43,315 bases of DNA from IMG/VR virus record IMGVR_UViG_3300042876_000110, positions 1 to 43,315 of that record; one strand, 5' to 3'. Origin of the DNA: a virus. The translations under genes and the position numbers were made by a program. The notes beneath the pieces are model-generated. The model did not search any database, was not told where the DNA came from, and saw only the letters and a list, made by a program, of their open reading frames with translations. Positions 13,773-43,105 of this stretch are shown here, one piece after another (position 1 is the first letter of the stretch; every line of letters begins with the position of its first letter).

Positions 13773-13775
13773 CGG

Positions 13776-15079: not shown

Positions 15080-15081
15080 AA

Positions 15082-16250: not shown

Positions 16251-16475
16251 ATGAAAACCAAGGCGAAGAAAGAAGCAAAAGTTACTCGCAAAGCAGTTGC
16301 GGTTGCCGAACCCGCAGAACAAGAAGCCCCGGAGCCAACTGAGGTAGAAGTAGCCCCGGAGGAACCAGTTGAGGAACACAGCCTCGAAGCCGAACTCGCT
16401 GCGGCCATCGCTTCAGGTGACAGGATTAAAACGGCAGAGATCAGAGCGAAGATTCAGGAAGCGGGAAACGCCTAG
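16251..16475 (+). CDS. Small charged low-complexity protein, rightward, 74 aa
   Basis: AGGAGG precedes the ATG by nine bases. The N terminus is lysine-rich (KTKAKKEAKVTRKAVAV). The middle is a Glu/Pro/Ala/Val stretch (PEPTEVEVAPEEPVEE). The end is a helix (EAELAAAIASGDRIKTAEIRAKIQEA). This resembles highly charged adaptor or histone-like peptides but has no clear family. It is one of only two plus-strand genes, and its TAG shares a CTAG with the TAG of the endolysin gene running towards it. Confidence 0.7.
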   Translation: MKTKAKKEAKVTRKAVAVAEPAEQEAPEPTEVEVAPEEPVEEHSLEAELAAAIASGDRIKTAEIRAKIQEAGNA

Positions 16476-18363: not shown

Positions 18364-18382
18364 TAATTGCTTTGGTGGTATA

Positions 18383-23174: not shown

Positions 23175-23176
23175 GG

Positions 23177-23524
23177 CTAAATCTCCTTTGTCCAAACAGT
23201 CAGAGGCTCGCGCTTATACCCAAGTCTCTCAAGATAATCTTCAAGTTCTTCTGAGGCTCCGTAGGCGAACATTTTTCTAATTCCGCTGCGCTTCGCCACA
23301 TTTTCAGCCTCCAGCATCAGCTTTCCGGCAACCATTGAGCCGCGCAAATCCTGCCGCACCCACGGCCCTTCAACATGCACAGGCGAAATGAGAAAAACTC
23401 TCCCCACAATTCCATTTTGGTCCCTGACCACGAGCGTTACGCTCGTCTTGGGATCGGGAACATACCCATCTGCCACCGCTGCCAGTTGTGGGTATTCTTC
23501 CGATTTCAAATGCTCAATCACCAC
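23177..23524 (-). CDS. GNAT-family acetyltransferase-like protein
   Basis: 115 residues with a compact GNAT outline: SVTLVVRDQNGIVGRVFL as the central strands, VEGPWVRQDLRGSMVAGKLMLEAENVAKRSGI for the acetyl-CoA loop and helix, then KMFAYGAS and EDYLERLGYKREPLTVW at the end. The R-x-x-G-x-G/A signature appears as QDLRGSMVAGKL. It may modify a phage or host protein. Its presence between ejection and fibre genes suggests a virion or assembly target. Confidence 0.72.
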   Translation of the reverse strand: MVIEHLKSEEYPQLAAVADGYVPDPKTSVTLVVRDQNGIVGRVFLISPVHVEGPWVRQDLRGSMVAGKLMLEAENVAKRSGIRKMFAYGASEELEDYLERLGYKREPLTVWTKEI

Positions 23525-23873: not shown

Positions 23874-24626
23874 CTATGCGAAGATCACCGATGCCCCTGC
23901 CCCGCCTCCACCCGATGGAGCAGTAATCGTAATACTAAAATTCTGAGTTCCGGTTTGAGAAAGAGTATCGGTAGCTGTAATCGTAAAAGAAAAAGTCCCT
24001 ACTGCCGAAGGAGTGCCGGAGATGATTCCAGTTCCACCAGCCAAACTTAGACTTGTTGGCAAAGATCCTGCTGTGACCGCAAATGTATATGATCCCGAGC
24101 CACCCTGTGCGCCAATGGTTTCTGAATATGCCATTCCCGTAACCCCGCCCTGCAACACCACAGCTACCGGAACAACCTCAGTGTTGGGGTTTATCGTAAT
24201 TGAAAATGCCTTATCGACAGTTCCAAAAGTGTTGTGTGCCCGCAGCGTAAAACTGAATGGACCCAACGCCGTTGGAGTTCCAGAAACCTTAGCCTGGTTC
24301 CCTGTGAGCGCCGTGAGCGATAACCCATTGGGTAGCGCCCCGGAGAGCACGCTGTAAGTTACCGTAGTCGCTGAAGTGGGCATATCCCAAGATTGGGAAT
24401 AGGGTATAAGAAATGTCCCGTCTGCAAATGTCCATGAACCCCATAGAGGAGGTGCGACAATCGTTGAAGCCAAAACCGCGTAGGCACCAAACTTGGTTAC
24501 GTCTACCCCTGCTAGTGGTGCAAGAACAGCGTAAGCACCAAACTTGGTGATATCTACGCCGGGGTTAGGCGCTAGCACCGCATAGCCATTGAACTTCGAA
24601 ATATTGACGCCAGCGTTAATTGCCAT
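23874..24626 (-). CDS. Ig-like (putative He_PIG) fibre-type protein with N-terminal triple repeat
   Basis: 250 residues. The first 54 are three 17-residue repeats of GV(D/N)-T/S-KFGAYAVLA. Two Ig-like modules of the putative-Ig type follow: GSWTF..SYSVLSGALPNGLSLTALTG..KVSGTPTALGPFSFTLRA and then GSGSYTFAVTAGSLPTSLSL, with SGTPSAVGTFSFTITATD. The pattern SGTP..G.FSFT is typical of these domains. It has no signal peptide. A fibre or receptor-binding role is inferred. Confidence 0.68.
   Translation of the reverse strand: MAINAGVNISKFNGYAVLAPNPGVDITKFGAYAVLAPLAGVDVTKFGAYAVLASTIVAPPLWGSWTFADGTFLIPYSQSWDMPTSATTVTYSVLSGALPNGLSLTALTGNQAKVSGTPTALGPFSFTLRAHNTFGTVDKAFSITINPNTEVVPVAVVLQGGVTGMAYSETIGAQGGSGSYTFAVTAGSLPTSLSLAGGTGIISGTPSAVGTFSFTITATDTLSQTGTQNFSITITAPSGGGGAGASVIFA
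24465..24617. repeat. Three 51-bp coding repeats
   Basis: Three consecutive 51-base units, each encoding about GVDITKFGAYAVLAP. The first is the most diverged. In-frame period 17 residues. Confidence 0.8.
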
Positions 24627-25616: not shown

Positions 25617-26257
25617 ATTCTCTCCACCTGCAATTCCAATATGACGCGATTTAGTGTCGCTACCGAGTCAAGCACAAATTCAAGAATCGTTCCCTTGGCA
25701 ATCGCCGTTGTCCAACCCGTTAGAACGTAGCTCTCGTTTTTCTGCGCTGTCGAAAGAGTCGGAGGGGCAGAAGCTACAATGCTGGTGGTAGTCGGGAAAT
25801 CCCCATAACTCGCTGCCTTCACCGTAAACTGGCAATCCCCAGCCTGGTCTGCAATCAGCGTCCATCCCACAATCATGCAATCGTAGAAAACTCTCACAAA
25901 GCCCTTGCTTCCTGTTGAGGGGACCGCCCCACCGCCATCTACTGCCATACCGATAGGCTGGTCGAACAACTGATCCCGCGGAGGATCAGCGAGCATCAGC
26001 GCGACATTGCCCGAAACTTCCTCAATCTGCGCTGCGTCAACCTGAGTCGGAAACGGCTGCGCCGCCATAATCGACTCAGCCATAGCCTGAGAAGCAATAT
26101 CTACCGGCTGCGTTTCTTCAATCGTCAGCGCAAACAGATTCTCCGGGTCGATAGGAGCCACCCCTTGAAGCTCCAAAAGCCATTTCATCCAATCCCAGGT
26201 AACAGTCCCATCCGAGTTTAGAAACCTGCTGCGAATTGGAATCGGTGAAATGGGCAT
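25613..26257 (-). CDS. Structural (head-tail or fibre base) protein, 214 aa
   Basis: The N terminus PISPIPIRSRFLNSDGTVTWDWMKWL is a recurrent start of phage structural proteins next to the tail hub. The remainder is strand-rich (GFVRVFYDCMIVGWTLIADQAG, FTVKAASYGDFP, ILEFVLDSVATLNRVILELQVER), consistent with a fibre or tail-tip protein. It sits directly after the gp10-like gene with a TGATG coupling. Specific role unassigned. Confidence 0.65.
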   Translation of the reverse strand: MPISPIPIRSRFLNSDGTVTWDWMKWLLELQGVAPIDPENLFALTIEETQPVDIASQAMAESIMAAQPFPTQVDAAQIEEVSGNVALMLADPPRDQLFDQPIGMAVDGGGAVPSTGSKGFVRVFYDCMIVGWTLIADQAGDCQFTVKAASYGDFPTTTSIVASAPPTLSTAQKNESYVLTGWTTAIAKGTILEFVLDSVATLNRVILELQVERI

Positions 26258-27708
26258 CAGCTTCCAGCTCCAGGCTGAACCTCAAGATAAGCGTCTGCAA
26301 TTCTCCAGGGGATCGGGTCACTCACGGTTAATTCATAGACTCTATCTCTCGCCCGCCCTAGCCTTCGCCAGATCACCCTTCTCTTGTATTCCCCAAGCCT
26401 TCCTTCTGAAGCAAAGTTGTCGTTTCCCCAGGTCTTTGCGCCGTCATTTGACCATCGCAGAATCACCTGCGGATCGAAGCCCTGCAAGGCAGGATTCACC
26501 AAGCCAAGCCCCACTTCCATGTCCACCTGAAGCGAGGAATGAAACATCCATTTCTGTTCGTTGGAAATGTGCGGAGCACGCCTGAGACGCCGAATCACCG
26601 TTCCATCATCATCGTAAATGTCGATGGACATCTCATAGACCTTGCCGGATTTCCAGTCGCCTACAAGATGCTTTTCAAAAGCAAACGCATGACATGTACT
26701 GTGATGAGCCTCATAACGATTCTGCGCGGCTAGCCAGAAACCACGCTCGTGCCATTGCTCGGTTGCCACATCGTAAACCCACGTTGCATCTCCGGCCCGA
26801 AATCGGATCACCCAAAAAGCATGTCCTTGATCCTGATAGGTATAGGCAATCGCATCCTCGGGCGTCGGATATTGCCTCCAGGCATACTCAACCGCATGGT
26901 TACTGACCCGATGCGGCGTGTAGCCCATCGCTCTCCACGCAATCATGTTGCCGCGCTCATCCCCACCAAGCCAAAACAGGGAATTGTCAATCTTGCATGT
27001 CGCCCACGTCGCGCCCGCACCCTGTTCGATATAAGCTCCAGGGATCACCGCAAATGGAAAATTTGCATTCCCTGAATCGTAGTAAACCTGTGAAGCCTTG
27101 CGCCCGAGAAACCAAATCTCCCGATGATCGATAATCATCGAAAGAACATTGTCAGCAAAAACCGAGATGATTTCCGTGTCGAGGCCATCCCAGCTTGTTG
27201 CGTCAAGAAGCCCTGAAATTTGAAACTGCTTTGAGTTGGCAAGAACCATGATGAAATAGCCGTCTGAAAAACCGACCTGATAAGGCGTCCCGAGCAGCGT
27301 AGTGATTGCCGCAAAATTGTTTGTCGCAAGGTCAAAGGAATAGGCCGAAAGCCCCGAGACAATCACCAGTTGGTTCTGACTGGAGGCAATCGAGGCCGGA
27401 TTCGCGTCCTCAGCCACCGTTCCGCGAATCATGTTCGTTCCATCCGAAAAAATCTCGTAAAAGGAAGGCCCGGAAACCGCGAACACTCTCCGCTCAAACT
27501 GCCCCGTTGGACTAATTTCGTGGAGCGCCCGCACAGAAGGTCCAGCCAGTGTCGTGAACGTAGAAAGCCCCGGCGTCGGATACATCGCCACCGGCCCCTT
27601 GCCCTTGCCGCTTTCCACAACTTCATCGTAGAAGTTCATGGTTCGTTCGCATTCGACATTGAGCGATTGCGAGCTATAAGAAGGCCCGCAAAATCCGAAT
27701 CTAGACAT
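26257..27708 (-). CDS. P22 gp10-like packaged-DNA stabilisation / tail hub protein
   Basis: 483 residues, similar in length to P22 gp10 (472). The N terminus FGFCGPSYSSQSLNVECERTMNFY and the beta-propeller-like body (GRFERRVFAVSGPSFYEIF-like, FLGRKASQVYYDSGN, NSLFWLGGDERGNMIAWRAMG, YTYQDQGHAFWVIRF, THSTCHAF-like) fit the Phage_stabilise family, with C-terminal RRLGRARDRVYELTVSDPIPWRI. It closes the head-to-tail channel after packaging. The strong match anchors the neck module. Confidence 0.88.
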   Translation of the reverse strand: MSRFGFCGPSYSSQSLNVECERTMNFYDEVVESGKGKGPVAMYPTPGLSTFTTLAGPSVRALHEISPTGQFERRVFAVSGPSFYEIFSDGTNMIRGTVAEDANPASIASSQNQLVIVSGLSAYSFDLATNNFAAITTLLGTPYQVGFSDGYFIMVLANSKQFQISGLLDATSWDGLDTEIISVFADNVLSMIIDHREIWFLGRKASQVYYDSGNANFPFAVIPGAYIEQGAGATWATCKIDNSLFWLGGDERGNMIAWRAMGYTPHRVSNHAVEYAWRQYPTPEDAIAYTYQDQGHAFWVIRFRAGDATWVYDVATEQWHERGFWLAAQNRYEAHHSTCHAFAFEKHLVGDWKSGKVYEMSIDIYDDDGTVIRRLRRAPHISNEQKWMFHSSLQVDMEVGLGLVNPALQGFDPQVILRWSNDGAKTWGNDNFASEGRLGEYKRRVIWRRLGRARDRVYELTVSDPIPWRIADAYLEVQPGAGS

Positions 27709-27990
27709 TTATGGCTTTCCCTCTCCCGCTGCCCTTGCATCTTTGATGTCTTGCTTGACGGCGGCAACTCCCGTATCACTCGCTGTAAATGACGGGTAAA
27801 GTTGCATGATCTTTGTCCGCACATCCCCGGAGAAATACTTCACGATAGCGAGAACGAGCCGATAGTATTTCTGTGCCGTGGGGAAATCATTCAGCACATC
27901 ATAGGGCGGCAGAATGGCATTAAGCACACTGAACACCAAGCAAATGCGTGCTGCCCAATCAAGTGCATCCAATAGTGTGATGTGGGCCAT
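27709..27990 (-). CDS. Small membrane-associated protein, holin candidate, 93 aa
   Basis: The N-terminal segment LLDALDWAARICLVFSVLNAILPP is a likely membrane helix with a second weak hydrophobic stretch (YYRLVLAIVKYF). The soluble end is VAAVKQDIKDARAAGEGKP. It sits with two other small genes with hydrophobic segments. A lysis or tail-associated role is possible; no family is assigned. Confidence 0.5.
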   Translation of the reverse strand: MAHITLLDALDWAARICLVFSVLNAILPPYDVLNDFPTAQKYYRLVLAIVKYFSGDVRTKIMQLYPSFTASDTGVAAVKQDIKDARAAGEGKP

Positions 27991-27998: not shown

Positions 27999-28301
27999 CT
28001 AACTGGTTGTCTGGAAAATTCCCAGGTCATTTGCAAGCTTCACAAATGCGTCATTGACAGCCTTGGAAAAGATCGCCACTTTCGCCGATACCGTGTCCAC
28101 CGGGGTATTCGGCGCGAGTTGGGAAATCTCCTGTGCAACTGTCACGATGCTTGCTGACAATGCCTGTTCAACCGCGATCCACTTCTGCGCCCCTGATTTG
28201 GGCGTGCCCTTCCATAGAGATTCCACACCCTGAACGAGCTGCGGAATTGCCGTCAAAGCGGGAATTACATACTTCAAAATCGCTGCGAATACTGCTCCCA
28301 T
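27999..28301 (-). CDS. Small protein with hydrophobic N terminus, 100 aa
   Basis: MGAVFAAILKYVIPALTAIPQLVQGVESLWKGTPK gives a hydrophobic N-terminal helix, followed by a helical soluble body (ALSASIVTVAQEISQL, VSAKVAIFSKAVNDAFVKLANDL). AGGAGG-like purines precede neighbouring starts. It may be a holin-cluster or inner-virion protein. Unrecognised. Confidence 0.5.
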   Translation of the reverse strand: MGAVFAAILKYVIPALTAIPQLVQGVESLWKGTPKSGAQKWIAVEQALSASIVTVAQEISQLAPNTPVDTVSAKVAIFSKAVNDAFVKLANDLGIFQTTS

Positions 28302-28478: not shown

Positions 28479-28772
28479 CTATTTCTTTTCAGCCAAAACT
28501 CCCCAGCCGTGCTCTTCCAAGCGAGAGACTCGCTTATCCATTACTTCCATAAGCGTCTCTAGCCGTTGAGCGCCAATATGCAGTTGGGAAAGCACCTCGC
28601 TTCTTGAGCTGGCCCATTTGTCATGATCAACTCGCCATAGCTCCACAAATTCCATTCTGTCTTTGAACTTCTTCAGACTTTCCATGTATTCTCGCCGGTT
28701 GAGATAGGCTATGACCGAGATCAAAACCAGAAGAATGATATTCCCAGCGTCCACATTTCCCGTGAGGTGCAT
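28479..28772 (-). CDS. Membrane protein with one span and coiled coil, holin-type candidate
   Basis: About 97 residues, starting at the ATG that gives MHLTGNVDAGNIILLVLISVIAYLNRREY, with AAGGA six bases upstream. One clear span (IILLVLISVIAYL) is followed by a long helix (LKKFKDRMEFVELWRVD, LETLMEVMDKRVSRLEE). Such one-span plus coiled-coil proteins include XhlA-type holin partners. It lies after the gene for an exported protein, and the upstream stop is 14 bases before. Confidence 0.58.
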   Translation of the reverse strand: MHLTGNVDAGNIILLVLISVIAYLNRREYMESLKKFKDRMEFVELWRVDHDKWASSRSEVLSQLHIGAQRLETLMEVMDKRVSRLEEHGWGVLAEKK

Positions 28773-28785
28773 TGTCATTCCTTCC

Positions 28786-30177
28786 CTATGGCCCGATGTA
28801 CGCATTATTAATAATGACGTTTTTCCAGTAGCGATACTCATCAGCCGGCAAGTAATTCAATCGGTCAACCTGCTCGCCGTAGCGGAAATCTCTCAGGTGA
28901 TAGCTGGTATCCCGATTGAGGCTCCAACCTGTGATGTTTAAAACGCTGGTTCCATCAATCCATATCTGGACTTCTCCATTGAACGGAGCCACAGCATTGG
29001 TGTTGTATTTTGTACGCATCTCCAAGGAATAGAAGGTGTCGTATTGAAGAGCGCACCCAATTCCCGTAATAGGGGTTGGCGGATTTGTCGATCCGCAATC
29101 TATGACAAACGTGCTTCCGCCTATTGGCCCATTCTGGAGTGACCATTTCAGCTTTAATGGGCCTGCGCCGGGAAGTGATGTGCTGTATTCAGTGGCAGCA
29201 ACGAACATACTCCACGGATCTCCGCTTGGGAACACGCTGCAACCAAAACAGCCAGCCGTAAAATAAAATAGTTTGCGCTGCATGTGCGGATCAGCCCCAG
29301 CCTCGGGAGTCTTGATGTAGAAATAGCCACGCGACCAAATCTCTGACGCAGTAACAATGGGGTCCGTTGCTGCCAAGAACTTCTCGACAAAGTAATCAAC
29401 ATCCTGGTGTGCCGATCCGCAGGCTGGATTGGCTGAATCTCCGCACATAACGTAATGCATCTGTGCGCAGTTTCCCCCGCCAGGGCAGGATGCTATAACC
29501 GTGTGCGTTGAATCCCACTTGCTTGACCATGCAGCAAAACTTGAGAGATCATCTGAAAAAAGATAAGTAGGCGTGCCCGCCGCTATCGAAACCGCATAGG
29601 CACGGCTTGAGGTTCCCGAGTTCGCGTCCGTCACTTTGAACGTCGGTGAATAACTCCCTGAAGCCGTTGGAGTACCTGTCAAAGCCCCTGTTGAAGTGTC
29701 CAGCGCAACACCCGGAGGCAAAGTCCCCGAAGAAATCGACCATGTATAGGGGGCGGTACCATTGGCTGCCTGTACGTTGGCGCTATAGGCCACGCCATTT
29801 GTTCCCGAGGGCAGGCTTGTGGTTATGATTGAAACCGAAATAATCGGGCTTCCGCCAATAACACTCATGTTGTAACTTCGGTTATCCACCGTCGAGGCGT
29901 TGTCAGCAATATGCACAACAAAACTATAGGAGCCAGACACACTAGGTGTTCCGCTGATAACTCCGGTGCTCGCATTGATGCTCAGTCCGAAGGGCAGGCT
30001 TCCCGAACCAATACTCCACGTGTAGGGCTTGGTTCCATACTTCGCCATAACCGCCTTGGAGTATGGAACGCTAATCTGAATGCTTGCAATGCTCTTGGTA
30101 GTGATCTGTACCGGCCTCACCGCCCAAGCAGGAAGCGCCCAAAACAGCAATGCGCAGATTGTGAGAACTTTTTTCAT
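28786..30177 (-). CDS. Exported Ig-like/lectin-fold protein with signal peptide, 463 aa
   Basis: The N terminus MKKVLTICALLFWALPAWA is a textbook Sec signal peptide with an A-x-A cleavage site. Then come two Ig-like (He_PIG type) modules: PYTWSIGSGSLPFGLSI..TGVISGTPSVSGSYSF and PYTWSISSGTLPPGVAL..TGALTGTPTASGSY. The rest is a concanavalin-type sandwich with many cysteines (SCPGGGNCAQMH, GDSANPACGS, GCFGCS) and the ending YWKNVIINNAYIGP. Exported beta adhesin or glycan-binding enzyme. Unusual for a virion gene. Confidence 0.75.
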   Translation of the reverse strand: MKKVLTICALLFWALPAWAVRPVQITTKSIASIQISVPYSKAVMAKYGTKPYTWSIGSGSLPFGLSINASTGVISGTPSVSGSYSFVVHIADNASTVDNRSYNMSVIGGSPIISVSIITTSLPSGTNGVAYSANVQAANGTAPYTWSISSGTLPPGVALDTSTGALTGTPTASGSYSPTFKVTDANSGTSSRAYAVSIAAGTPTYLFSDDLSSFAAWSSKWDSTHTVIASCPGGGNCAQMHYVMCGDSANPACGSAHQDVDYFVEKFLAATDPIVTASEIWSRGYFYIKTPEAGADPHMQRKLFYFTAGCFGCSVFPSGDPWSMFVAATEYSTSLPGAGPLKLKWSLQNGPIGGSTFVIDCGSTNPPTPITGIGCALQYDTFYSLEMRTKYNTNAVAPFNGEVQIWIDGTSVLNITGWSLNRDTSYHLRDFRYGEQVDRLNYLPADEYRYWKNVIINNAYIGP

Positions 30178-31637
30178 CTGCTCCTCAAAGTCGTTGGAGT
30201 CGGAGTAAAATGCGGCGAAGCAGGAATGACTTCGCTCGGCGTGTAGTCTACATAGATGCCGAGGAAGTCAGAATCAACTGTCGAGTGTGGGCTCGGCGGT
30301 GGGTAGCCGTACATGGCGGTTGGCTCAAATAGCAGCCAAAGTTTGGTCAGTAGCCATGCTCCGATTCCCATCGTTGGTAGGTTATGGTGCCCACCTGGAG
30401 GCGGTGGAGGTGCAGGAGTGTAATCCACATAGATACCGAGAAAATCAGCGTCAGATATACGAGTGGTTGATGTGGTTTTGCGAATCGCAACTGTCGCCGC
30501 ACTTCCGCTGGTAACTCCAGTAGTATTTACCGGGCCATAATGCGTTATCCATCCTCCGAGGCTGCCGAACGTTCCGCATACCGTGGAAGTATCATCTCCA
30601 AAATCAAAAGTGTTTCCTCCAGCCGTCTGCGCCGGATTGCTGTCAATCCAGACTCCTCCCGCTTTTGTCCCGGTCGAAACTTCCTCACAATCGTTGGTAA
30701 TAGCCATGACCGCATTGATGGTGTCAGAAGCACCGACTCCGGCTGTTTGGTAGCTCGGAGTAGTGGGCTTATAGTCAAGGTTCCCACCGCTTGCCGCATT
30801 TTTAATTTGTGTCGTGTTGTTTTCGCCTGCGGCGGATTTGCCCCCAGGAGGACTAACTATCACCGCGTTAAAAATATTAGAAGTTCCTCCAGCACCGCCA
30901 GTCCATGAATTCAGTGAAGCGGGGTCAGCGTTGGGCTTCACAAGAATTGATTGCCCTGCACCAGGGAATCCCGACGTAGCAAAGGTATTGTCGTCAAAAA
31001 TGACATCATCAAAATAAATCTCAGCGATGGAATTCGAAGCCGCCGAAAGACCCAAATCTGCTCTTGGTTGGGCGGCAGATGCCGTTGTCGCTACAGACGC
31101 CCATGAACTCCCATCGACAAATACCCTGCGTCCGTTTCCAGAACTCCACCCTGCGTCAAACTCTATGTAGTGCCACGTTCCGTCAACTGATAATGCATTG
31201 GTGCTCGTGGCGTCATCTGTTGACCCATGACCAACCGTAAGTTTTCCGTCTGTCCCAAGCTTCAGATAATCCTGAATGGCATTGCTAGCGTTTAGGGTTA
31301 TATATATCTGACCTGCCACACTGGGAAGCACCGCAACTTGAAAATAAAACCTAATCGACCTAAAAAGACTTCTTTGAGCTCCGCCCGCCGCCCTCGATGA
31401 GAATGTCATCGTGCCACTGTTTCCAGTGGTACTCTTCCACTGCATCGCATAGGAACCGGTACGTTTCGTGACTCCCTGCATGGTTATTGCAGTAGCCGCA
31501 ACACAACCAATTCCTGCCTGACTTACACCTTCGCATTGGCTCCCCATTTCAAAACCGCATATTACAGTCCGCGCCGCTTCTGCCTGCCACGACAGAATGA
31601 GCGTCAAAAGAATTGCGGAAATAAGTCGTTTAATCAT
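30174..31637 (-). CDS. Exported LamG-like protein with signal peptide, 487 aa
   Basis: Start at the ATG at 31635-31637, with GAGAGGA just upstream. The signal peptide MIKRLISAILLTLILSWQAEA ends A-E-A. A LamG-like domain follows (FYFQVAVLPSVAGQIYITLNASN, TDGKLTVGHGS, TWHYIEFDAGWSSGNGRRVFVDG, AEIYFDDVIFDD). The C-terminal part has two copies of DFLGIYVDYTP, a proline run, and a hydrophobic stretch MGIGAWLLTKLWLLF. Many cysteines occur near the N terminus. A cell-surface or periplasmic glycan-binding role is inferred. Confidence 0.7.
   Translation of the reverse strand: MIKRLISAILLTLILSWQAEAARTVICGFEMGSQCEGVSQAGIGCVAATAITMQGVTKRTGSYAMQWKSTTGNSGTMTFSSRAAGGAQRSLFRSIRFYFQVAVLPSVAGQIYITLNASNAIQDYLKLGTDGKLTVGHGSTDDATSTNALSVDGTWHYIEFDAGWSSGNGRRVFVDGSSWASVATTASAAQPRADLGLSAASNSIAEIYFDDVIFDDNTFATSGFPGAGQSILVKPNADPASLNSWTGGAGGTSNIFNAVIVSPPGGKSAAGENNTTQIKNAASGGNLDYKPTTPSYQTAGVGASDTINAVMAITNDCEEVSTGTKAGGVWIDSNPAQTAGGNTFDFGDDTSTVCGTFGSLGGWITHYGPVNTTGVTSGSAATVAIRKTTSTTRISDADFLGIYVDYTPAPPPPPGGHHNLPTMGIGAWLLTKLWLLFEPTAMYGYPPPSPHSTVDSDFLGIYVDYTPSEVIPASPHFTPTPTTLRSR
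30238..30453. repeat. Internal C-terminal repeat, two copies
   Basis: The peptide DFLGIYVDYTP is encoded at about 30238-30273 and 30418-30453, 180 bases apart, with several synonymous changes. Between them lies the proline run and hydrophobic stretch. It suggests a duplicated C-terminal unit. Confidence 0.7.
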
Positions 31638-31645
31638 AGTTCCTC

Positions 31646-34030
31646 TCAAAATTGCGCGTACCAGACGAGTGCCTGCACCGCTACACCCGCGCTGGTGTTG
31701 ATGCAAAGTTGGCTGCTCGCCGCCGTCACAAGCCCTGGAGAATTTGATACGGGCTGCACGATTCCGGTCTGCGCCGTGAACTGATAAGCGGGTGTCAGGT
31801 CCGTGGTGGTGGCGCAAGTTCCTGTCGTCGCACCCATGAGCTTGACGTTGACCGTGCCCGCGCTGAAAATGTTGTACCCGCAAACGTAGACCTTTTTCGA
31901 CCCGGAAGAAGCCACAAGCTGCGTCGCTCCGTTGGTCGAAGCGTCGTACTTGGCGACGTTCTCGCAGAGGATTGCGCCCACTGTCGGAGTGTCGGCGTAT
32001 GCCGTGGTGACGCGCGGCGATCCGGTCCCGGTAGCTCCCAACCCCATCAGCGGGGTCGTGGCATTTATCTGCGCGATGTTGACCGATTGATTTGCGGGCA
32101 GGGCTACAGAATCCGGCGTGACCAGCAGCTTCGTCATGCTGGCAACACCCTGCACGGTCAGGATATTTCCAGCCGGAGATCCTGCCGTTCCGGTTCCAAC
32201 AACTGCCGCATTCAGATTCGCCGCAGTGGGTGAAAGAGCAATCGTCGTTTTGGCAGGTTCATAGGCGAGTAGAGCGTAATTTGGCGTCACGGTGGCGCTG
32301 CCCGTAATCTGCGTCGAGAGCTTGATCCTCAAACCCTGCCAGCCCTTTCCCATTAGCAGGAAAGGCTTATTGGTCGATTGAACCAACGTGTAGGGCAGTG
32401 AAATCTGCGCGAATGTGGTCGAGGATGGGTCAAGCACCGCATCGGCAGGGATCGTCACCCAGTTCGAGTTGTCATAGCTGACTTCAAAAGTAATCGCGCC
32501 ACCGCTGATTGTGGTTCCCTGTACCAAATGGACAAGCACTGCGCCTACACCCGAGTTCGAGAAGATTGTCTGTGTGGCGTTGAGCGCGGTTCCAGATGTC
32601 CAGCCGGAAAGGGTTTTAAGCGCAATGCCCTGAGAAACTTTCAGGTTTCCGCTTTGGTCGGATTGCAGCGCAAGCGCCTGGGTATCGCTGGGCGCTGGAA
32701 TCGTCGCATTATAAATCGATCCTGTAACCACTTGGTTGGTCGGAGCTGTGCCCGAGCCTACGGTGGAATCCACTGTCGCGCCGCCGTTGCCAAGTACGCG
32801 CACCGTACCAATAACTTTGGTGGTTTCGGCGGAAAGCGTGGCGGTCGTGACGCTAGTAGCGTCCGTGACTGTATGAAGGTTGGTTCCCGTCCCTTGGGTC
32901 GCCGTAATCGACCCCGAATCTACAACGGTATGGAGATTGGTTCCTGTACTCTGCCCAACAACCCAAGGACTCGTGCCCTGCGTTGCTGCAAAGGAAGTAT
33001 TCGAGATCGAACCGGAGTCAATGATCGTGTGTTGTTGGTCAGCGGGCTTGGTACGAGTGGAAAGCGCAACATCTAGATTGGTCAATCCGGCATTGGTCAC
33101 ACCAATAGTTGAATTAGTAAAAGTGACATTATTTTCCGTGCCACTCTGCGAAATCTTGATAGGCCATGCCGATAGCCCCGCTGCACCCTGATCTGCGGTA
33201 ATTGTGCCGCTTACCGTAGCCGTGCCAGAGGTCGTAACCGCGCCGGAAATCACCCAGGGTGAGGTAGATTGCATAGCAGCAAAAGTGGCAGGGAAATTGT
33301 TGACGTTGAAGCCAGAAGGGAAGTTTCCAACATCGACCGTTCCGCTAACTGGTTGTGTGACTTGCCAGAACGTTCCAGTTACCGGGTAACTTGATGGAAA
33401 ATTGGAAACACTAACGGTACCCGATATTGGAACACTTAGATCTCCAAGACTAAATCCAACATCGACCCACGTTCCGACATTATTCTTTACCTGAATATGA
33501 ACCAGTTGACTGGATGGCCCACCGCAGCCAATTACACAGTTGACCTTAATTGGTACGTTACCGCTAGGAACCTGCTGCGCCTTCACACTTAGGGTAAACA
33601 ACATCAGAATTGAGAGGATGATGATCGCCAGAGCTACCGTAGAGGCTTTGGGAAGTTTCAAATGCTTGGATGCTTCCTTTTCCAATCCTACCGTGCGCAG
33701 CAAGGCTCGAACGATGGCAAGTTCAACCGCTTTTTGGTCGTTATCATCCTTCGTCACCCGAATGCGAATTTCGTTGTCACTCTGCACCCCACCTGCTCTT
33801 TGAAGCAGGATCGGAGTTTCAGTCAGGCCAGCAATCGCGTTGATCGTGTGCCGTTCGAGGTCACAGTCAACTCCATCAACATGGATGTATGCCCCGGCAT
33901 ATTCCTGAATGTGAACCGTATACCCCATCGAGAACATGCCCACCGCAGAGGAAACTCTGAATCCCGCTTTAGCAAGGTTCCCTCGCAGAGCATTCGCCGT
34001 TTGACAGTCACCCAGGACTCGGATTCTCAT
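31646..34030 (-). CDS. Large fibre-like protein with internal membrane/signal segment, 794 aa
   Basis: Start at the ATG at 34028-34030, overlapping the previous stop (ATGA). Residues 1-120 form a small alpha/beta domain (MRIRVLGDCQTANALRGN). Residues 131-149 (TVALAIIILSILMLFTLSV) are a strong membrane or signal segment ending KAQQ. A long beta-rich region then carries fibre repeats: SGTVSVSNFP, TSPWVISG, TQGTSPWVV and GTNLHTVVDSGS units. The C-terminal part has cysteines. It may be made as a membrane-anchored or cleaved fibre. Whether the N-terminal domain is separate is unclear. Confidence 0.68.
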   Translation of the reverse strand: MRIRVLGDCQTANALRGNLAKAGFRVSSAVGMFSMGYTVHIQEYAGAYIHVDGVDCDLERHTINAIAGLTETPILLQRAGGVQSDNEIRIRVTKDDNDQKAVELAIVRALLRTVGLEKEASKHLKLPKASTVALAIIILSILMLFTLSVKAQQVPSGNVPIKVNCVIGCGGPSSQLVHIQVKNNVGTWVDVGFSLGDLSVPISGTVSVSNFPSSYPVTGTFWQVTQPVSGTVDVGNFPSGFNVNNFPATFAAMQSTSPWVISGAVTTSGTATVSGTITADQGAAGLSAWPIKISQSGTENNVTFTNSTIGVTNAGLTNLDVALSTRTKPADQQHTIIDSGSISNTSFAATQGTSPWVVGQSTGTNLHTVVDSGSITATQGTGTNLHTVTDATSVTTATLSAETTKVIGTVRVLGNGGATVDSTVGSGTAPTNQVVTGSIYNATIPAPSDTQALALQSDQSGNLKVSQGIALKTLSGWTSGTALNATQTIFSNSGVGAVLVHLVQGTTISGGAITFEVSYDNSNWVTIPADAVLDPSSTTFAQISLPYTLVQSTNKPFLLMGKGWQGLRIKLSTQITGSATVTPNYALLAYEPAKTTIALSPTAANLNAAVVGTGTAGSPAGNILTVQGVASMTKLLVTPDSVALPANQSVNIAQINATTPLMGLGATGTGSPRVTTAYADTPTVGAILCENVAKYDASTNGATQLVASSGSKKVYVCGYNIFSAGTVNVKLMGATTGTCATTTDLTPAYQFTAQTGIVQPVSNSPGLVTAASSQLCINTSAGVAVQALVWYAQF

Positions 34031-34317
34031 ACAATGCACGTCAGGACGACCGTGGGCGAGCCAGTCACCGCCTGCAACCATGCAGGGGGCTTGGTCGTGC
34101 CCTCGGGACTTCCTACCTTGTAAGAAAGTTGAATGACCTCTTGCACCCCGGAAACGAAAGTATCCTCAGTCGCAGAGTCCGCTACTTCCGTGCGAATCTT
34201 CACGTCTGCCGTGTCACAGCGCATAACCAGTTGACGGTATTCAAAAGGCAGCACTACCGGAGTCCATGAGATGCTGTCGATATCCAAACGCAGCTTGCGG
34301 TAGTATTCCGCCATCAT
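34027..34317 (-). CDS. Small strand-rich protein, 96 aa
   Basis: Reads YYRKLRLDIDSISWTPVVLPF, then LVMRCDTADVKIRTEVADSATEDTFVSGVQEVIQL and SPTVVLTCIV. Mostly beta strands. Start codons ATGATG overlap the previous TGA, and its stop overlaps the next ATG. It may be a small virion or adaptor protein for the fibre. Unrecognised. Confidence 0.6.
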   Translation of the reverse strand: MMAEYYRKLRLDIDSISWTPVVLPFEYRQLVMRCDTADVKIRTEVADSATEDTFVSGVQEVIQLSYKVGSPEGTTKPPAWLQAVTGSPTVVLTCIV

Positions 34318-35210
34318 CTCCCCATGCAGACGACATTAAACTTGTAAGTGAGTGCCTGCGGAGTTCCCTGAAAGGTAATCGTCAGAACGGTTGCCGAGGT
34401 CGTATCAAAGGCAAATCCCGTTGTAGGTGCAGAGGCATCGCCACGGCTCACGGTGCAAATCGGGTTATTCGTCCAAGTGCCATCCTTAAACGTCAAGGCA
34501 ATCGTAGGATTGGCTACGAAGTTTGCCGTTCCTGCTGAAACCGTAAAGGCTGAAGCCTGATCTGTTCCCACTACCGCGCTTATACTTGCTGCTGGCGTAT
34601 CGCCCCAGCCCGCAGAAAGTGCAAAGTCTGAGGCTTCAAGAGCCGTTCCACCTGATTTGATCCGCTTGAATGAATTTAGGGCCGTAAAGACATTGGCCGC
34701 GCCAGTCGTCCCGCAGGTTGGGCAGGAAAGCGCCGGTGTCGGCCCGCTGGTCGCCACGATGGGCGAAGTTCCAGTTACAGATCCCACCGAACCCGCTGAA
34801 GTTTGAACGATTGTTACCATCGCGCTGCCATCGCTCCAAACACTAGGCCGCACTCTGAAATTCGTCCTGGCTGAGATCGGAAAAACCCATAATCCCGCCG
34901 CTGTTGCGCCTGTGGCTCCGGCTCCTGAAGGCTGCGGATAGCCCGTTGCCGATGTCCAACTTGCTTGATGATCCGCCGACTGCTCAAACACGAACGTTCC
35001 GGTAAAGGTTCCGGTAATTGTGACACTCACGCTCGCGGTAGCTGGATTGAGCGGAGTTTTCAGGCATCCCGAGAGCACACAGGAAACGTCAACAGCGGTA
35101 ACAATCGTGGTACAGCCATGCCCCGGAGCGCATTCAGTCGCCCTAACGGGAACAACCGAATAAATCAGCAGAATTGCAGCCACGAAAAGATTTCTCAATA
35201 ACATTTCCAT
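34314..35210 (-). CDS. Exported beta-rich protein with signal peptide, 298 aa
   Basis: Begins with a Sec signal peptide (LLRNLFVAAILLIYSVVPVRA) followed by cysteine pairs TECAPGHGCT, SCVLSGCLK, then a domain with SVSVTITGTFTGTFVFEQSADHQASW and, later, CPTCGTTGAANVFTALNSF. The C-terminal domain (NPTIALTFKDGTWTNNPICTV to KFNVVCMGR) is a stem or knob-like beta fold. Exported adhesin or fibre; disulphides are likely. Overlaps the next gene by 16 bases. Confidence 0.7.
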   Translation of the reverse strand: MEMLLRNLFVAAILLIYSVVPVRATECAPGHGCTTIVTAVDVSCVLSGCLKTPLNPATASVSVTITGTFTGTFVFEQSADHQASWTSATGYPQPSGAGATGATAAGLWVFPISARTNFRVRPSVWSDGSAMVTIVQTSAGSVGSVTGTSPIVATSGPTPALSCPTCGTTGAANVFTALNSFKRIKSGGTALEASDFALSAGWGDTPAASISAVVGTDQASAFTVSAGTANFVANPTIALTFKDGTWTNNPICTVSRGDASAPTTGFAFDTTSATVLTITFQGTPQALTYKFNVVCMGR

Positions 35211-36085
35211 CCCCCACGTATGCGATGTGCCTCTGCGCCCGCGTTATCCCCGCCCGTCGCGCATGCATCTCCCTGAGCAGCCGGAGTGTTGCAGTTCGAG
35301 CAATAGACAATCCTTCCATCTGCGGGCGTGCCCAAATCTCCGTTCGCAACAATGTTCAAAATCAGGTCACTGGTCGGAGTGCTGCCGTCATAGCTCCAGC
35401 AGGGAAGTCCCGTAACCGTGTCAAAACCCCACAAGCCAACGTTCGCTTCTGCGGTCCCGCAGGTTTCCCCGGTTATCTCAATCGGATGGTCCGTTGAAAA
35501 GCGGTCTGTCACATAAAGCGCACCATTGTTGAGGGTATCGCCCTGGAATGTTTTATTTCCGCAAAACACTTGCGGATCGCCATTCACAGCCCCGCGAATC
35601 GAGCAGGAAGCCGTAGGAAGGTTGAAAGTGTGCGTGTCGATGCTTGAAACAATGTTGAAATCCGTTCCCAGTGTGCCCACCGCAAAGAGTTGCGTGCCTA
35701 CCGTCAAAGAATTGAGGCTAGTAAGAGAGCCTCCACCGCAGCCGGGATATTGAACTCCGTCCTCTGTCCACTGAGTAACGTTTACAGAGTCCTTCACGAC
35801 GATTTTGTAGGTCGGGTCAGAGCATTTGATGTAAATCGAGGCATACCCACCCGCGTCAAGCAGAATCGGATTGGTATTCTGACTCAATGAGCTTCCGGTT
35901 GAATCGGCATAGGTCGCCTGAGGAGTATTTGTGCCTCCCACATAGGTATAAACCTTCCCAAAAGCCAGAGGCCGGCCGGAAGCATCAAAGAATTGTTCCC
36001 GCGCCTGCATCAAAGGCGAAGCGGGAGCTTGCGCGAACATCTCAACAGGCCATATCAACATAAGAATTAGAAATAGCCTAGTCAT
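35195..36085 (-). CDS. Exported fibre-stem protein with signal peptide, 296 aa
   Basis: The N terminus MTRLFLILMLIWPVEMFAQA is a signal peptide. It is followed by the fibre-stem pattern: REQFFDASGRPLAFGKVYTY, TPQATYADSTGS, NTNPILLDAGGYASIYIK, KIVVKDSVNVTQWTEDG. This block is known from many podophage tail fibres and spikes. The end is a cysteine-rich domain (CSNCNTPAAQGDACA). The same pattern is shared with the split fibre gene at 17239-18363. It should bind a host surface glycan or be exported. Confidence 0.76.
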   Translation of the reverse strand: MTRLFLILMLIWPVEMFAQAPASPLMQAREQFFDASGRPLAFGKVYTYVGGTNTPQATYADSTGSSLSQNTNPILLDAGGYASIYIKCSDPTYKIVVKDSVNVTQWTEDGVQYPGCGGGSLTSLNSLTVGTQLFAVGTLGTDFNIVSSIDTHTFNLPTASCSIRGAVNGDPQVFCGNKTFQGDTLNNGALYVTDRFSTDHPIEITGETCGTAEANVGLWGFDTVTGLPCWSYDGSTPTSDLILNIVANGDLGTPADGRIVYCSNCNTPAAQGDACATGGDNAGAEAHRIRGGWKCY

Positions 36086-36825
36086 CTAGTGAATCCACCC
36101 GTCAAGTAGTTGAAATATGGTTTCTCCGGCCCTGCTTTGGGCATCCCGAAATCTCTCGTTGTCATCAGCGGAGCAGTTGAGTTCACCGCCTGAATGATCG
36201 CCTTCGCGTGCTTCCATGCCTCTAAAAGCAGCGCGTCGGGTTGCTTGGCGAATGCAGGACACATCGAAAGCGCCAATTCGTAAGTAATCGCGTCCTGATA
36301 GCCTGGAGGCAGGTTAATGGTCGTTGTGAGGTTCGCAATCTGCGAAAGCAGCGTCCAAGTCTCAAGCTCAATCCCGAAGGCTGCTGTAGGAATCGGCCAG
36401 AGAAACAGATTCCCATTCGGCCATGCAGGGCTATAGTACAAGTCCGTAGGAAGTGTCGTGAGAATGTCCCTTACACGCAGATTCGCCCACCAGTCGTCAT
36501 TTCTGATATTCATAGGACATCTGACACTCGGACTACTGCTGGTCAGGATTATTGCCGCATTTTCAATCTTTACCGGACGCTGTGCCACCGTGAACGTTGC
36601 GCCAGTTGGCCCGATGGTATGCGGCTGCAAACTCGGAACAAGCGTGTAAGAGTTGAAATCGACGTTATAGACGTTCAACTTCTTAGCGTTCCATGCGTCC
36701 ATCATGCGGTTGAATTTGGTTAGTCCGAACTGCGCGTCTGCCGCAGACGGAGTTTCACCCTGCGAGTAAACGCCAATTTCCATCAGAGCGTCTTTGATAA
36801 GGTCAAGAGCTGAAACCGTGGCCAT
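36082..36825 (-). CDS. P22 gp4-like head-tail accessory protein
   Basis: 247 residues. The N-terminal helix-rich block, ALDLIKDALMEIGVYSQGETPSAADAQFGLTKFNRMMDAW, is the hallmark of P22 gp4-type tail accessory factors. A strand-rich domain follows (HTIGPTGATFTVAQRPVKIENAAII, DLYYSPAWPNGNLFLWPIP, LETWTLLSQ). It binds the portal after packaging and holds the gp10-type hub. It is longer than P22 gp4 (166). Its ATG overlaps the previous stop. Confidence 0.86.
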   Translation of the reverse strand: MATVSALDLIKDALMEIGVYSQGETPSAADAQFGLTKFNRMMDAWNAKKLNVYNVDFNSYTLVPSLQPHTIGPTGATFTVAQRPVKIENAAIILTSSSPSVRCPMNIRNDDWWANLRVRDILTTLPTDLYYSPAWPNGNLFLWPIPTAAFGIELETWTLLSQIANLTTTINLPPGYQDAITYELALSMCPAFAKQPDALLLEAWKHAKAIIQAVNSTAPLMTTRDFGMPKAGPEKPYFNYLTGGFTR

Positions 36826-38435: not shown

Positions 38436-39665
38436 TTACGCGCAGAGAACGCGGCAAGCGCAATTGTCCGCGTACAAATTTCCGAAACCGAGCAGCACGT
38501 CAAAGCGATTGACCATCTTCGATTGCACCGGATCGAACATGCGCACGAAGCGCACAGCAATCCCGGTTTCGGGATCACGAGTCTGTGAGGCCATTTCAAC
38601 GGCCTTCGGGGTTTCCAGCTTCACTCCCACCAGAGCAAAAGCGTCACGATTCAGGGCAAGCCCTTGCACGCCGCTCAAGCCGTTGGGTGAAGTGGTGCCG
38701 GGAAACAGCGTTAGCGCATCGCCCGCAGTCGGGAAGCGGTCAACGTTCTGATACTGCGAGCCGGGACCGTAGATCACCGGAGCGATTGAAACCGTAGCCG
38801 CCGATCCAGCGCCGGTTGCATCAGCGGTCACAACAAACAGCTTGGAGCTGCCCGTCGAGCGCCGATTGACCGGATTTGTGGCATTCACGCTGGCAACTGA
38901 GAAAACGTCGCCCTTCTTGAACGTGTCGCCGGTGGTGCAGGTCAAGGCGAGAGAGCTTGCACCGTCAACCGCTGTGGTGGTGACAGTCACCCCGCCCTGC
39001 CAAGTTCCCGCTGTGTGGGAGTACAGGTTATTCGAGGCGTACCAATCGAATCCCGCCGCCCTGCCCATCGACCCCTCTTTGTACTGCCGGGAAATTTCAG
39101 AGGTCGGATTGAACAGGTTGGTAAGATTCGAGATCAAGGAAGTCTCGACCTTGGGAGGAACAATCATGCCTCGCTCTCCCGGCGTGCAAGCCAACTCGTT
39201 CAAGACCTGCCGCGCCCCGAGAAATGGGTCAATCGCCGTGGGGTTGGTTCCCAAAATTCCAACGATGTTGTTGGTATTCTGGTAGGCCCAAAGTGACGCC
39301 CTGGAGTCGATTTCGTTGGCGAGCTGGCTCATTGCAGGGTCGATGTATTCCCTGCGAATCGCTTCCTCGCCGCGCTCTGCTTTCAACGCCTTCTCAACCG
39401 AATCCCACTCGAAGTCAATCCCGAAAATCTGGTCAACTGTGACAGTGGTATTCAGCCGATTGATCGCTTGCGGGGTGTAACCCAGTCCAGTGCGAACCGT
39501 GAAACGTTGCGGGAGCTTTACGCGGACTGTCTCACCTACCGCAAATTCCTTTGAGAACTCCTTGTTGTAATCGGTGTTGAAAAACTGTGCAATTTGCAGC
39601 TTGTTGACGAGGATTCGCAAACTTTCCATCGTCAGCCAATCTACAAACAGAAATGTGTTAGGCAT
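38436..39665 (-). CDS. Major capsid (coat) protein, P22-like
   Basis: 409 residues, close to the P22 coat (430). The outline fits: LRILVNKLQIAQFFNTDYNKEF at the N terminus, TVRVKLPQRFTVRTG, TVDQIFGIDFEWDSVEKAL, FLGARQVLNELACTPGERGMIVPPKVETSLI, an inserted domain (GVTVTTTAVDGASSLALTC), then SQYQNVDRFPTAGDALTLFPG, and MFDPVQSKMVNRFDVLLGFGNLYADNCACRV. HK97-fold shell protein of the prohead. The distinctive P22-type order and length make this a confident call. Confidence 0.9.
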   Translation of the reverse strand: MPNTFLFVDWLTMESLRILVNKLQIAQFFNTDYNKEFSKEFAVGETVRVKLPQRFTVRTGLGYTPQAINRLNTTVTVDQIFGIDFEWDSVEKALKAERGEEAIRREYIDPAMSQLANEIDSRASLWAYQNTNNIVGILGTNPTAIDPFLGARQVLNELACTPGERGMIVPPKVETSLISNLTNLFNPTSEISRQYKEGSMGRAAGFDWYASNNLYSHTAGTWQGGVTVTTTAVDGASSLALTCTTGDTFKKGDVFSVASVNATNPVNRRSTGSSKLFVVTADATGAGSAATVSIAPVIYGPGSQYQNVDRFPTAGDALTLFPGTTSPNGLSGVQGLALNRDAFALVGVKLETPKAVEMASQTRDPETGIAVRFVRMFDPVQSKMVNRFDVLLGFGNLYADNCACRVLCA

Positions 39666-40832: not shown

Positions 40833-41015
40833 TTAGTTAAACTTCGTGTTCTGCATAATCTTCTGTGCCAATACTGGCACGCCGTTCAAGACTTTCAGCT
40901 TGTCAATCTCGCCGCAATCAAGACTTTGACAGAAACGAATAAACTTTAACCACGTAGGATTGATCTCGAAATCCTTTATGCCAACACAATATGACTTTGG
41001 CATTGGATTACTCAT
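40833..41015 (-). CDS. Small protein after portal, 60 aa
   Basis: The ATG overlaps the portal stop (ATGA). It reads MSNPMPKSYCVGIKDFEINP, then WLKFIRFCQSLDCGEIDKLKVLNGVPVLAQKIMQN. A mixed fold with three cysteines. It is the last gene before a strong terminator. No family recognised. Confidence 0.6.
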   Translation of the reverse strand: MSNPMPKSYCVGIKDFEINPTWLKFIRFCQSLDCGEIDKLKVLNGVPVLAQKIMQNTKFN

Positions 41016-43105
41016 TGCGCTGGTTGCTCCGCAAACTCATCTTGTGGCTCTGGCTGGCTGGCCTGCATTGCTCCCATGCCCACCTCGTGCGCTGCACCGT
41101 GAATTTCCTTCCAAACTTCCATGAATATTTGCGCGCGCTCGGATGCGCTCTGCGCTTTAGTCTCAATTTCAGCTATGGCTATCTTTGTGGCATTGTCCTT
41201 GTCGGCCTGCTGAAGTTTGAATTGATTATCAACGACCTTTGCTTCCTTCTCCTGCTTAAGTTGCGTTAACTCACCCTCAAGCTGCTTTGCATAAAAGTTT
41301 AAAGATGTAACCTGCTGCTGAAGTTGCTGAATACCCTGTTGAACCTGCGGAGGAATCTCCGGGCCTTCTTCGGGCGGGTCAATGGCATCAGCCATCTCAT
41401 CGCCCAAGACCCCCAGATTCTTCAAGCGGATTGTTTGACCAAGAATCTTCGCTGCGGGCTTGCTACCGCCAAGTGCCGCCTGAATCAATGCAGGATTGCC
41501 GCCGATGCTGTCCGCAAAATCATTTGCTTGATCCCGCTGGCTCTGGTAACTCGGGCCAGTGGAAATCGTGACATCATGCTCTCCATCCCCCAGCATATTT
41601 GAAATCTGCTGCTTGGTGGCTTCGTCGGTGAAAGGCTGATTCACCTTCACCGTGTCAAAAGATTCATCCGCATTGCGGATTCCAATTTCTCGCGGCGTAT
41701 CGTAAACTACCGGAATGTAATCATTCAAAATCCTGCCGCCATGCTCTAAGGCGCGGTCAAAGTTGTCGATGAAATGATAGCTTCCCTGCGCCTGCTGCTG
41801 CTCGATTCTCTCAAGGGCGACACCGGATTTTTCATTTCTGCGCTTGGCCGCTGTGGGCAGGGCACTGATACCCAGTGCGCTCTGAATTGCCTGCCTTGCT
41901 GATTCGGCTCCCATCTCGAGTGGTTGTATTGCGGGTTCGTATGCCTGTCGCTGGGGGAGGGGAAGTAGGTTGGTCCCTGTTGCGTCGGTCAGGGGTGCTA
42001 CTTGCAGGTAGGGGATGGGAGCCTTGTTCACATTCTGCCATTCGTCCTCGTGTCCGGTAAATTGGCCTTCATAGCCAATGTAGGGCGTCTTGGGCGTCAT
42101 GCCCACTACTTCGGCTTGACAAGTTCGATAATATGCATATAACATCTGTGGGTCACGCGCCAATCTTATTAGACTCATTAACACTCGCTCTGACCCGTGG
42201 CCCTTGTCGATGTAAAGCTCCTTCCCGAAAACGGGAACAATGGGCACGTATTTTCCATGCCACTTCTCGGTTCCATCGCTTTCCTTGACCATCCCTCCCC
42301 ATTCGTTCTTTTCCAAGATTTCAAGACCATTCGTGATGTACTGGCAAATCCGGCGCTTTTCAACTTCCCGCGTCTTATCCCCCTCGGTCAGTTCTGTATA
42401 AGTGTATTCCACTTTCCAGTATTCCCCAACCAGAACGCTGTCCTCCTGAATCCACAATGGAGCCGCTTGGATATGCTCAGAAGTGAAATCGACAACCTTC
42501 GCTTTGGGGTATTGCCGCTTAAATTCCTTCTTCTTCATCGGCTCAACCACGAAGCAATACTTCATGTCTGAGCAATCGGCCTCTTTGCAGTCCGGGTCAA
42601 TGTAAATGCAGTCAGGATTGGGAATCCTGCGAATGCAAAGCTCCTGGTCGAAACTAGTTTCATCAACGTATCGAGTCGTGATGCGGAAGAATCCATAGCT
42701 TCGAGAGGCCGCATTCTCAAAAGCGGTCAGGTAAGCAGACTGAGCATTCGATTTGTACTCAATTTGCCGAATAATCCCGGCGCGAAGTTCCGCGCTCTTG
42801 TCGTCTGCCCCGGCTCCGGTGGGAATCACCTTAATGGACCGCTTATTCTGCCGCGCATCGTTTACAAGCTGGTTCACGTATTGGTTAAGTTCATCAGCAG
42901 AGATACATGGCCTGCCTGCGTCTTCTCGCGCCTTGCGCTCTTTCGGCTCCCAAGGATCGCCTGCAACATACTTCATATCCTTGACAGCCTCAGCCCGAAT
43001 GTCGCGCCAAGAGTCCACGCAATACTGAAACCGCTCACGGATTTCCAGAATTAGCGGATCGTCCGTTCCAGGCTTCGCGCTCGGATTGTCGTTGTAATCA
43101 GCCAT
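41012..43105 (-). CDS. Portal protein, P22-like
   Basis: 697 residues, close to the 725 of P22 gp1. It shows the family outline: EIRERFQYCVDSWRDIRAEAVKDMKYVAGDPWE, NQYVNQLVNDARQNKRSIKVIP, AFENAASRSYGFFRITTRYVDE, RRIPNPDCIYIDPDCKEADCSDMKYC, GRILNDYIPVVYDTPREI, and DHDVTISTGPSYQSQRDQ-like, with a helical, glutamine-rich C-terminal barrel (QQGIQQLQQQVTSLNFYAKQLEGELTQLKQEKEAK). The ring forms the DNA entry gate and docks terminase. It overlaps the sigma-like gene by eight bases. Confidence 0.92.
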   Translation of the reverse strand: MADYNDNPSAKPGTDDPLILEIRERFQYCVDSWRDIRAEAVKDMKYVAGDPWEPKERKAREDAGRPCISADELNQYVNQLVNDARQNKRSIKVIPTGAGADDKSAELRAGIIRQIEYKSNAQSAYLTAFENAASRSYGFFRITTRYVDETSFDQELCIRRIPNPDCIYIDPDCKEADCSDMKYCFVVEPMKKKEFKRQYPKAKVVDFTSEHIQAAPLWIQEDSVLVGEYWKVEYTYTELTEGDKTREVEKRRICQYITNGLEILEKNEWGGMVKESDGTEKWHGKYVPIVPVFGKELYIDKGHGSERVLMSLIRLARDPQMLYAYYRTCQAEVVGMTPKTPYIGYEGQFTGHEDEWQNVNKAPIPYLQVAPLTDATGTNLLPLPQRQAYEPAIQPLEMGAESARQAIQSALGISALPTAAKRRNEKSGVALERIEQQQAQGSYHFIDNFDRALEHGGRILNDYIPVVYDTPREIGIRNADESFDTVKVNQPFTDEATKQQISNMLGDGEHDVTISTGPSYQSQRDQANDFADSIGGNPALIQAALGGSKPAAKILGQTIRLKNLGVLGDEMADAIDPPEEGPEIPPQVQQGIQQLQQQVTSLNFYAKQLEGELTQLKQEKEAKVVDNQFKLQQADKDNATKIAIAEIETKAQSASERAQIFMEVWKEIHGAAHEVGMGAMQASQPEPQDEFAEQPAQ

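Follow-up and report, generated by a model that had tools for sequence, protein, structure and literature searches.

The IMG/VR virus record IMGVR_UViG_3300042876_000110 (43,315 bases, here called the window) carries, among late genes on the minus strand, a cassette of five large genes (g1 to g5, Table 1) between a gp4-like and a gp10-like neck gene. A sixth gene of the same kind, 17239-18552, lies after the ejection genes and before the endolysin gene. Judged from its gene content, this soil phage is a P22-like podophage. We consider it probable that the tailspikes and fibres encoded by these genes are exported through the Sec pathway, disulfide-bonded in the periplasm and joined to the virions at lysis. 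Export out of the cytoplasm, which the original prediction had already proposed for the cassette, is well supported at the sequence level because of the conservation of the signal peptides (SPs), the match to Acidobacteriota and, above all, the even cysteine counts. The features read from the sequences are the SPs, a virion-attachment domain directly after the cleavage site, gene coupling, even cysteine numbers and recurrence in Acidobacteriota-linked relatives; from these we infer SP cleavage, disulfide formation and attachment after lysis.

By their N-terminal domain, the products of g5 and 17239-18552 are tailspikes. The profile of this domain, compared with PDB entries using hmmsearch, matched 7eeq ('Tailspike head-binding domain') with an E-value of 3.6e-9 and the tail spikes 9vyg/9vyh with about 1e-7. 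It also aligns (tblastn and alignment) with the start of annotated spikes from Rhodoferax phage P26218, Xanthomonas phage PBR31, Vibrio phage VvAW1 and X14, and the authors describing PBR31 regard the same domain as virion-binding (PMC10975493). In these proteobacterial relatives the domain has no SP; the tailspikes of P26218, PBR31 and VvAW1 open with it. The SP of the window spikes is placed where the SP-less spikes have their start methionine, and the domain sits directly after the predicted cleavage site (mature QIEISPLPMPRLQFFD versus MAVQIAPLPVMRFYD). A receptor-binding or glycan-cleaving beta-helix was sought in the C-terminal parts of both proteins, and no Pfam match was found there.

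SPs were called throughout by a rule, namely a positive n-region, an h-region of 9 residues with a mean hydropathy of at least 2, and an AxA-type cleavage site. The rule is passed by g1 (MKKVLTICALLFWALPAWA followed by VR), g2 (MIKRLISAILLTLILSWQAEA followed by AR), g5 (MTRLFLILMLIWPVEMFAQA followed by PA) and g4 (MLLRNLFVAAILLIYSVVPVRA followed by TE), the last from its second ATG at 35204, which is more likely than 35210 to be the start that yields the SP. The product of 17239-18552 has an SP-like N-terminus when read from an internal start between 18438 and 18513. In g3, an SP-like segment begins at about residue 130 (TVALAIIILSILMLFTLSVKA, with VKA before the site and QQ after it). These calls bear out the original prediction of four genes with clear signal peptides and a fifth with an internal membrane or signal segment. 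All five of its reading frames are present on the minus strand; the set is larger than it supposed, as the sixth member lies outside its interval. The cassette genes are packed by 4-base ATGA overlaps or preceded by strong ribosome-binding sites, therefore the SPs are translated. Because the ATG of g3 at 34030 overlaps the stop codon of the preceding small gene g3b (ATGA), the long N-terminal segment of g3 is probably real. The stretch ahead of the SP-like segment is 125 aa in g3 and 65 aa in its homolog L157:6458-8464, and in L148:2154-3326 a LuxR-type helix-turn-helix (HTH) precedes the SP.

Proteins of this kind would suit an alternative in which the hydrophobic N-termini remain uncleaved, serving as inner-membrane anchors or as a virion-binding peptide. 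The g3 protein and its homolog, with the segment placed after 65-130 residues, are like type II membrane proteins, and the HTH ahead of the SP in the L148 protein points the same way. We consider this alternative improbable, as 50 of the 67 SP-bearing late proteins have an [AVS]xA site behind the h-region, the segments are mostly short (12-15 hydrophobic residues), and the residues after the site align with the native N-terminus of the SP-less spikes.

The background of the rule was estimated in three ways. Of 157 genes in six annotated P22-like phages, eight pass, no fewer than three of which resemble real SPs; in the window, 7 of 232 open reading frames (ORFs) of at least 60 aa pass; and N-termini with shuffled residues pass in 8-35 % of trials, therefore composition carries most of the SP signal. 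The parity of the cysteine counts confirms the SPs independently. This dependence on composition is what could be said for hydrophobic N-termini that arose by chance and have no function. That explanation is extremely improbable and is already contradicted by the parity of the cysteine counts (61/66 against 30/60, see below); in addition, five of the six SPs fall in one block and are conserved in relatives across two families, and the SPs are associated with Acidobacteriota.

Disulfides normally do not form in the cytoplasm. Exported proteins that form them avoid free thiols and so tend towards even numbers of cysteines, and reading disulfide-forming export from such counts is reportedly established practice, as by Dutton and co-workers in 2008. 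Across the relatives, 61 of 66 SP-bearing late proteins have an even count in their mature form (p 3e-13); by homology cluster, the figure is 25.9 of 28 (p 3e-6). The core SP-less virion proteins of the same phages are even in 30 of 60 cases and other SP-less late ORFs in 37 of 87, and the ejection proteins contain no cysteine. The rule for the cleavage site underwent one refinement, made when odd counts had come to light (no cysteine at position -1, lipoproteins set aside). With the unrefined rule, a smaller set gave 41 even counts out of 48 (p 6e-7), and the conclusion on parity is therefore independent of the refinement.

The same contrast is found within the head-binding domain. Among 95 domains (80 viral loci from the domain search, together with the window and loci found earlier), the mean number of domain cysteines is 2.1 for SP-bearing and 0.26 for SP-less copies. 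When the domains are clustered, 15 of 16 SP-bearing clusters have at least two domain cysteines and 18 of 19 SP-less clusters have none. The domain cysteines of the SP-bearing subclades are at differing sites. Even mature counts are thus best read, from sequence, as a signature of disulfides formed after real export, and without folding of the mature proteins in an oxidising compartment the overall pattern would be difficult to account for.

An SP directly precedes the head-binding domain in 23 of the 95. P22-type gp10 is present in 19 of the 20 related records searched, and the arrangement of the window recurs exactly in one of them (L140, record G011), where three SP genes separate gp4 from gp10; a search for this layout had been suggested as a check on the cassette. 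Runs of large SP-bearing genes are also found after the ejection genes of related genomes, and in L007, L011, L136 and L149 SP-bearing fibres occupy the position of 17239-18552. The 14 phage records of this kind have an SP on every copy of the head-binding domain (15/15), so that they lack a cytoplasmic version of this type. A second, unrelated family in the virion block, beside the capsid gene, has SPs in five phages and none in four (Table 1), with the SP preceding the shared sequence. So large a set had been thought unusual; it is instead recurrent in a phage group, where such genes also follow the ejection genes and adjoin the capsid gene.

Homologs were found for g1 (L154 and L002), for g3 (L157, as above) and for g2, whose SP-bearing homolog in a different phage type (L155/L157) is 53-55 % identical. 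Two phages without P22-type gp10, one of them with nine SP genes in a row, likewise have homologs of g1, g2 and g3. A search for relatives with g5, g3 and g4 as queries returned no viral relatives. In L158 (record G793, 712-15216), about nine SP-bearing genes follow one another, homologs of g1 and g5 included, and P22-type gp10 is absent. Pfam searches of 20 large SP-bearing proteins of the relatives revealed little besides Ig-like domains and one LuxR HTH. That the cassette genes are modular and common to other phage types would fit captured host adhesins, that is lysogenic-conversion genes with an inherited SP, and export-signalled bacterial enzymes with a tailspike fold do exist (WceF, PMC7949094). 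Such an origin is nevertheless very improbable, given the phage head-binding domain behind the SP in g5 and 17239-18552, the location of the genes within the late block, and the capsid-adjacent family, which gained SPs that its relatives do not have.

When the profile of the SP-bearing domain was searched against bacterial genomes, the best four matches were in Acidobacteriota. An SP is present in 6 of 6 distinct Acidobacteriota loci and in 1 of 12 loci from other phyla (Fisher p 4e-4); L122, an SP-less locus of the Acidobacteriota group in an odd GC-rich bin, was judged doubtful and excluded from this test. One of the Acidobacteriota loci is on a 6.4 Mb chromosome, adjoining phage ejection-like genes. 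The only non-Acidobacteriota SP case among the genome matches is L115:6149, from a Hyphomicrobiales metagenome-assembled genome, where an SP-like N-terminus precedes a tailspike head-binding domain. In the phylogenetic tree, SPs are concentrated in one clade, with a separate origin in a second Acidobacteriota lineage; five label changes are needed, at least three of them forced by well-supported branches. Screening 396 Acidobacteriota genomes for gp10 gave two matches only, therefore prophages of this type are rare and the host assignment rests on few loci. The phages with SP-bearing spikes appear to infect Acidobacteriota; no virion of this group in culture was found. We see about even chances that the case is general, with many Acidobacteriota phages splitting their assembly so that spikes and fibres (in some, the capsid-adjacent protein) are exported, oxidised and added at lysis, and with some cultured phages, BcepC6B for example, having single-gene versions.

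The cassette proteins other than g5 are less easily classified. g1 contains two He_PIG domains (PF05345, E 9e-26). Its AlphaFold2 model has a predicted local distance difference test (pLDDT) score mostly above 80 over the Ig-like part and is reliable there only; in Foldseek the top match was the adhesin SraP and cadherins were also matched, which in a model-based comparison indicates the Ig-like fold only and not a function. The g2 model has a mean pLDDT of 33. Structure prediction, another suggested check, was thus informative for the Ig-like part of g1 and not for g2. The 'Ig-like' motifs originally claimed were confirmed for g1 alone and the 'LamG-like' motifs for none. Pfam domains for an outer-membrane barrel or a cell-wall sorting motif were not found in g1-g5. 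A second He_PIG Ig-like protein of the window (23874-24626, minus strand) is related to g1, and has neither SP nor cysteine. At the C-terminus of g2 (30174-30430, minus strand), the motif DFLGIYVDYTP is repeated around a proline-rich hydrophobic stretch, which suggests an internal duplication.

If the explanation that we prefer is right, the tailspikes and the further fibre or adhesin proteins would be made late, as Sec precursors, from the neck-gene block. The host would export the precursors to the periplasm, remove the SP and oxidise the cysteines to disulfides, while heads, portal and neck would be built in the cytoplasm without spikes or fibres. Lysis would then mix the compartments, and the mature spikes would bind finished particles via the N-terminal head-binding domain. 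The products of g1, g2, g3 and g4, which have no such domain, might bind the spikes or the neck, or stay on envelope debris. In P22, addition of the tailspike is the last assembly step and works in vitro, which makes attachment outside the cytoplasm plausible.

Some or all of the exported proteins could instead act on the host envelope, through superinfection block, receptor masking or remodelling, without being virion parts, the head-binding domain then being a leftover or a decoy. This is the strongest rival, though we think it unlikely. The SP and disulfide evidence suits any periplasmic or surface function, g1 is built of Ig-like adhesin domains, g1-g4 lack an attachment domain and fit either reading, and known exported phage proteins, lambda Lom among them, have their place of action in the envelope of the host (PMC12309495). 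Against this, all copies of the head-binding domain are intact, these genomes have no SP-less copy that could serve as the virion spike, and coupling ties the genes to those of the neck. Superinfection block is usually the work of a single small gene, early or lysogenic, unlike the up to nine large late genes found here. Of the functions listed in the original prediction, attachment to virions is therefore favoured from the domain evidence for g5 and 17239-18552, and no positive evidence was found for superinfection block or coating of the cell.

Several points weigh against export followed by attachment at lysis. The SPs were called by rule and not by SignalP, and the N-terminal segment ahead of the SP in g3 would be superfluous in a normal secreted fibre. 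An attachment domain is recognised in only two of the six proteins, and the efficient encounter of fibres and particles in a lysate is a point that the proposal would have to explain. The count in g2 is odd, with the same five cysteines in its homolog, and L020, L102, L103 and L120 have an SP and fewer than two domain cysteines. An independent-pairs phylogenetic test of SP against domain cysteines had 3 pairs, too few to be of use. Disulfides could in principle also form after lysis, without export.

The genes discussed are listed in Table 1. The block from gp4 to g1 is nearly gapless, with g3b ATGA-coupled to both g4 and g3. The cassette is separated from gp10 by three small ORFs, which may at most be candidate members of the export set.

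Table 1. Genes of the window and of comparison phages. Cysteine (Cys) counts are for mature proteins unless stated otherwise
Feature	Location	Strand	Properties and matches
P22-type portal	41012-43105		PF16510, E 9e-126 (Pfam)
P22-type coat protein	38436-39665		PF11651, E 2e-26 (Pfam)
gp4-like head-tail adaptor	36082-36825	minus	SP-less; upstream cassette border; phrog_12985, E 2.5e-40; phrog_637 (Ad3), E 9e-11
g5	35195-36085	minus	SP; tailspike head-binding (virion-attachment) domain; 10 Cys; phrog_26190, E 7e-14
g4	34314-35210 (start 35210 or 35204)	minus	SP; Cys-rich; 8 Cys; no family match
g3b	34027-34317	minus	Small SP-less protein between g4 and g3; no family match
g3	31646-34030	minus	N-terminal segment of ~125 aa; SP-like/membrane segment; repetitive fibre-like region; 6 Cys after segment
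g2	30174-31637	minus	SP; all-beta, fibre-like; 5 Cys
g1	28786-30177	minus	SP; two He_PIG Ig-like domains; C-terminal all-beta domain; 8 Cys
Three small ORFs between cassette and gp10	27709-27990, 27999-28301, 28479-28841	minus	Two or three with a hydrophobic segment
gp10-like head-closure protein	26257-27708	minus	SP-less; downstream cassette border; phrog_578 (Hc3), E 1e-107
Ejection protein	22419-23195		phrog_598
Sixth SP-bearing member	17239-18552	minus	SP-like N-terminus; head-binding domain; 10 Cys; phrog_26190, E 2e-5
Endolysin	16472-16948		
Capsid-adjacent family, with SP	L140:6295-7170, L149:8422-9297, L146:12783-13808, L152:7036-8064, L142:18554-19438		
Capsid-adjacent family, SP-less homologs	L002, L007, L008, L013		
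Burkholderia phage BcepC6B gp19	L160:4001-5074		SP-bearing fibre-like gene of cultured proteobacterial podophage; 4 Cys
Phage PBR31 orf35	L019:24674-25483		As BcepC6B gp19; 2 Cys
Phage P26218 gp24	L014:15489-15998		As BcepC6B gp19; 2 Cys

To our knowledge, the textbook view is that the whole of a tailed-phage virion is put together in the cytoplasm, and tail spikes too are otherwise regarded as wholly cytoplasmic products. If the proposal is true, the group would have a further compartment for assembly and a late attachment step set off by lysis; this would amount to a periplasmic branch of tailed-phage morphogenesis, and would explain how soil phages come by unusually robust, disulfide-stabilised receptor-binding proteins. 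An SP together with an even cysteine count would be a simple annotation marker for receptor-binding proteins of uncultured soil phages. A literature search found no published description of SP-bearing tailspikes. Target proteins of phage diversity-generating retroelements have been described as lacking the signal peptides that the bacterial ones have (PMC6199706), which reflects the usual expectation.

The closest known proteins are the P22-type tailspikes (the P22 gp9 kind; PDB 7eeq and 9vyg; PBR31, P26218), which share with the window the head-binding domain, the late-gene position and the company of P22-like portal, coat, gp4 and gp10. The window spikes differ in the SP before the domain, the cysteine pairs inside it and the even cysteine count overall; in the known relatives the protein begins with the domain itself and such pairs are absent. 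Host Sec export during phage expression is also used by lambda Lom and Bor, spanins and SAR endolysins, but they act on the envelope or in lysis, whereas the window proteins form large multi-gene fibre sets with a virion-attachment domain. Filamentous phage pIII and pVIII are virion proteins made as Sec precursors, and pIII is oxidised in the periplasm; however, filamentous phages assemble in the membrane, and the window phage is a tailed phage with cytoplasmic head assembly. WceF (PMC7949094) is likewise a tailspike-like protein with an export signal, but is encoded by a bacterial gene, uses Tat rather than Sec and has no virion role. The SPs of BcepC6B gp19, PBR31 orf35 and P26218 gp24 are not discussed in the literature examined. 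These three resemble the window genes in having an SP, a position in or beside the fibre module and an even mature cysteine count, and differ in that one SP gene was found per phage and the spike itself is not exported. With them, the trait extends beyond metagenomes and becomes testable in culture.

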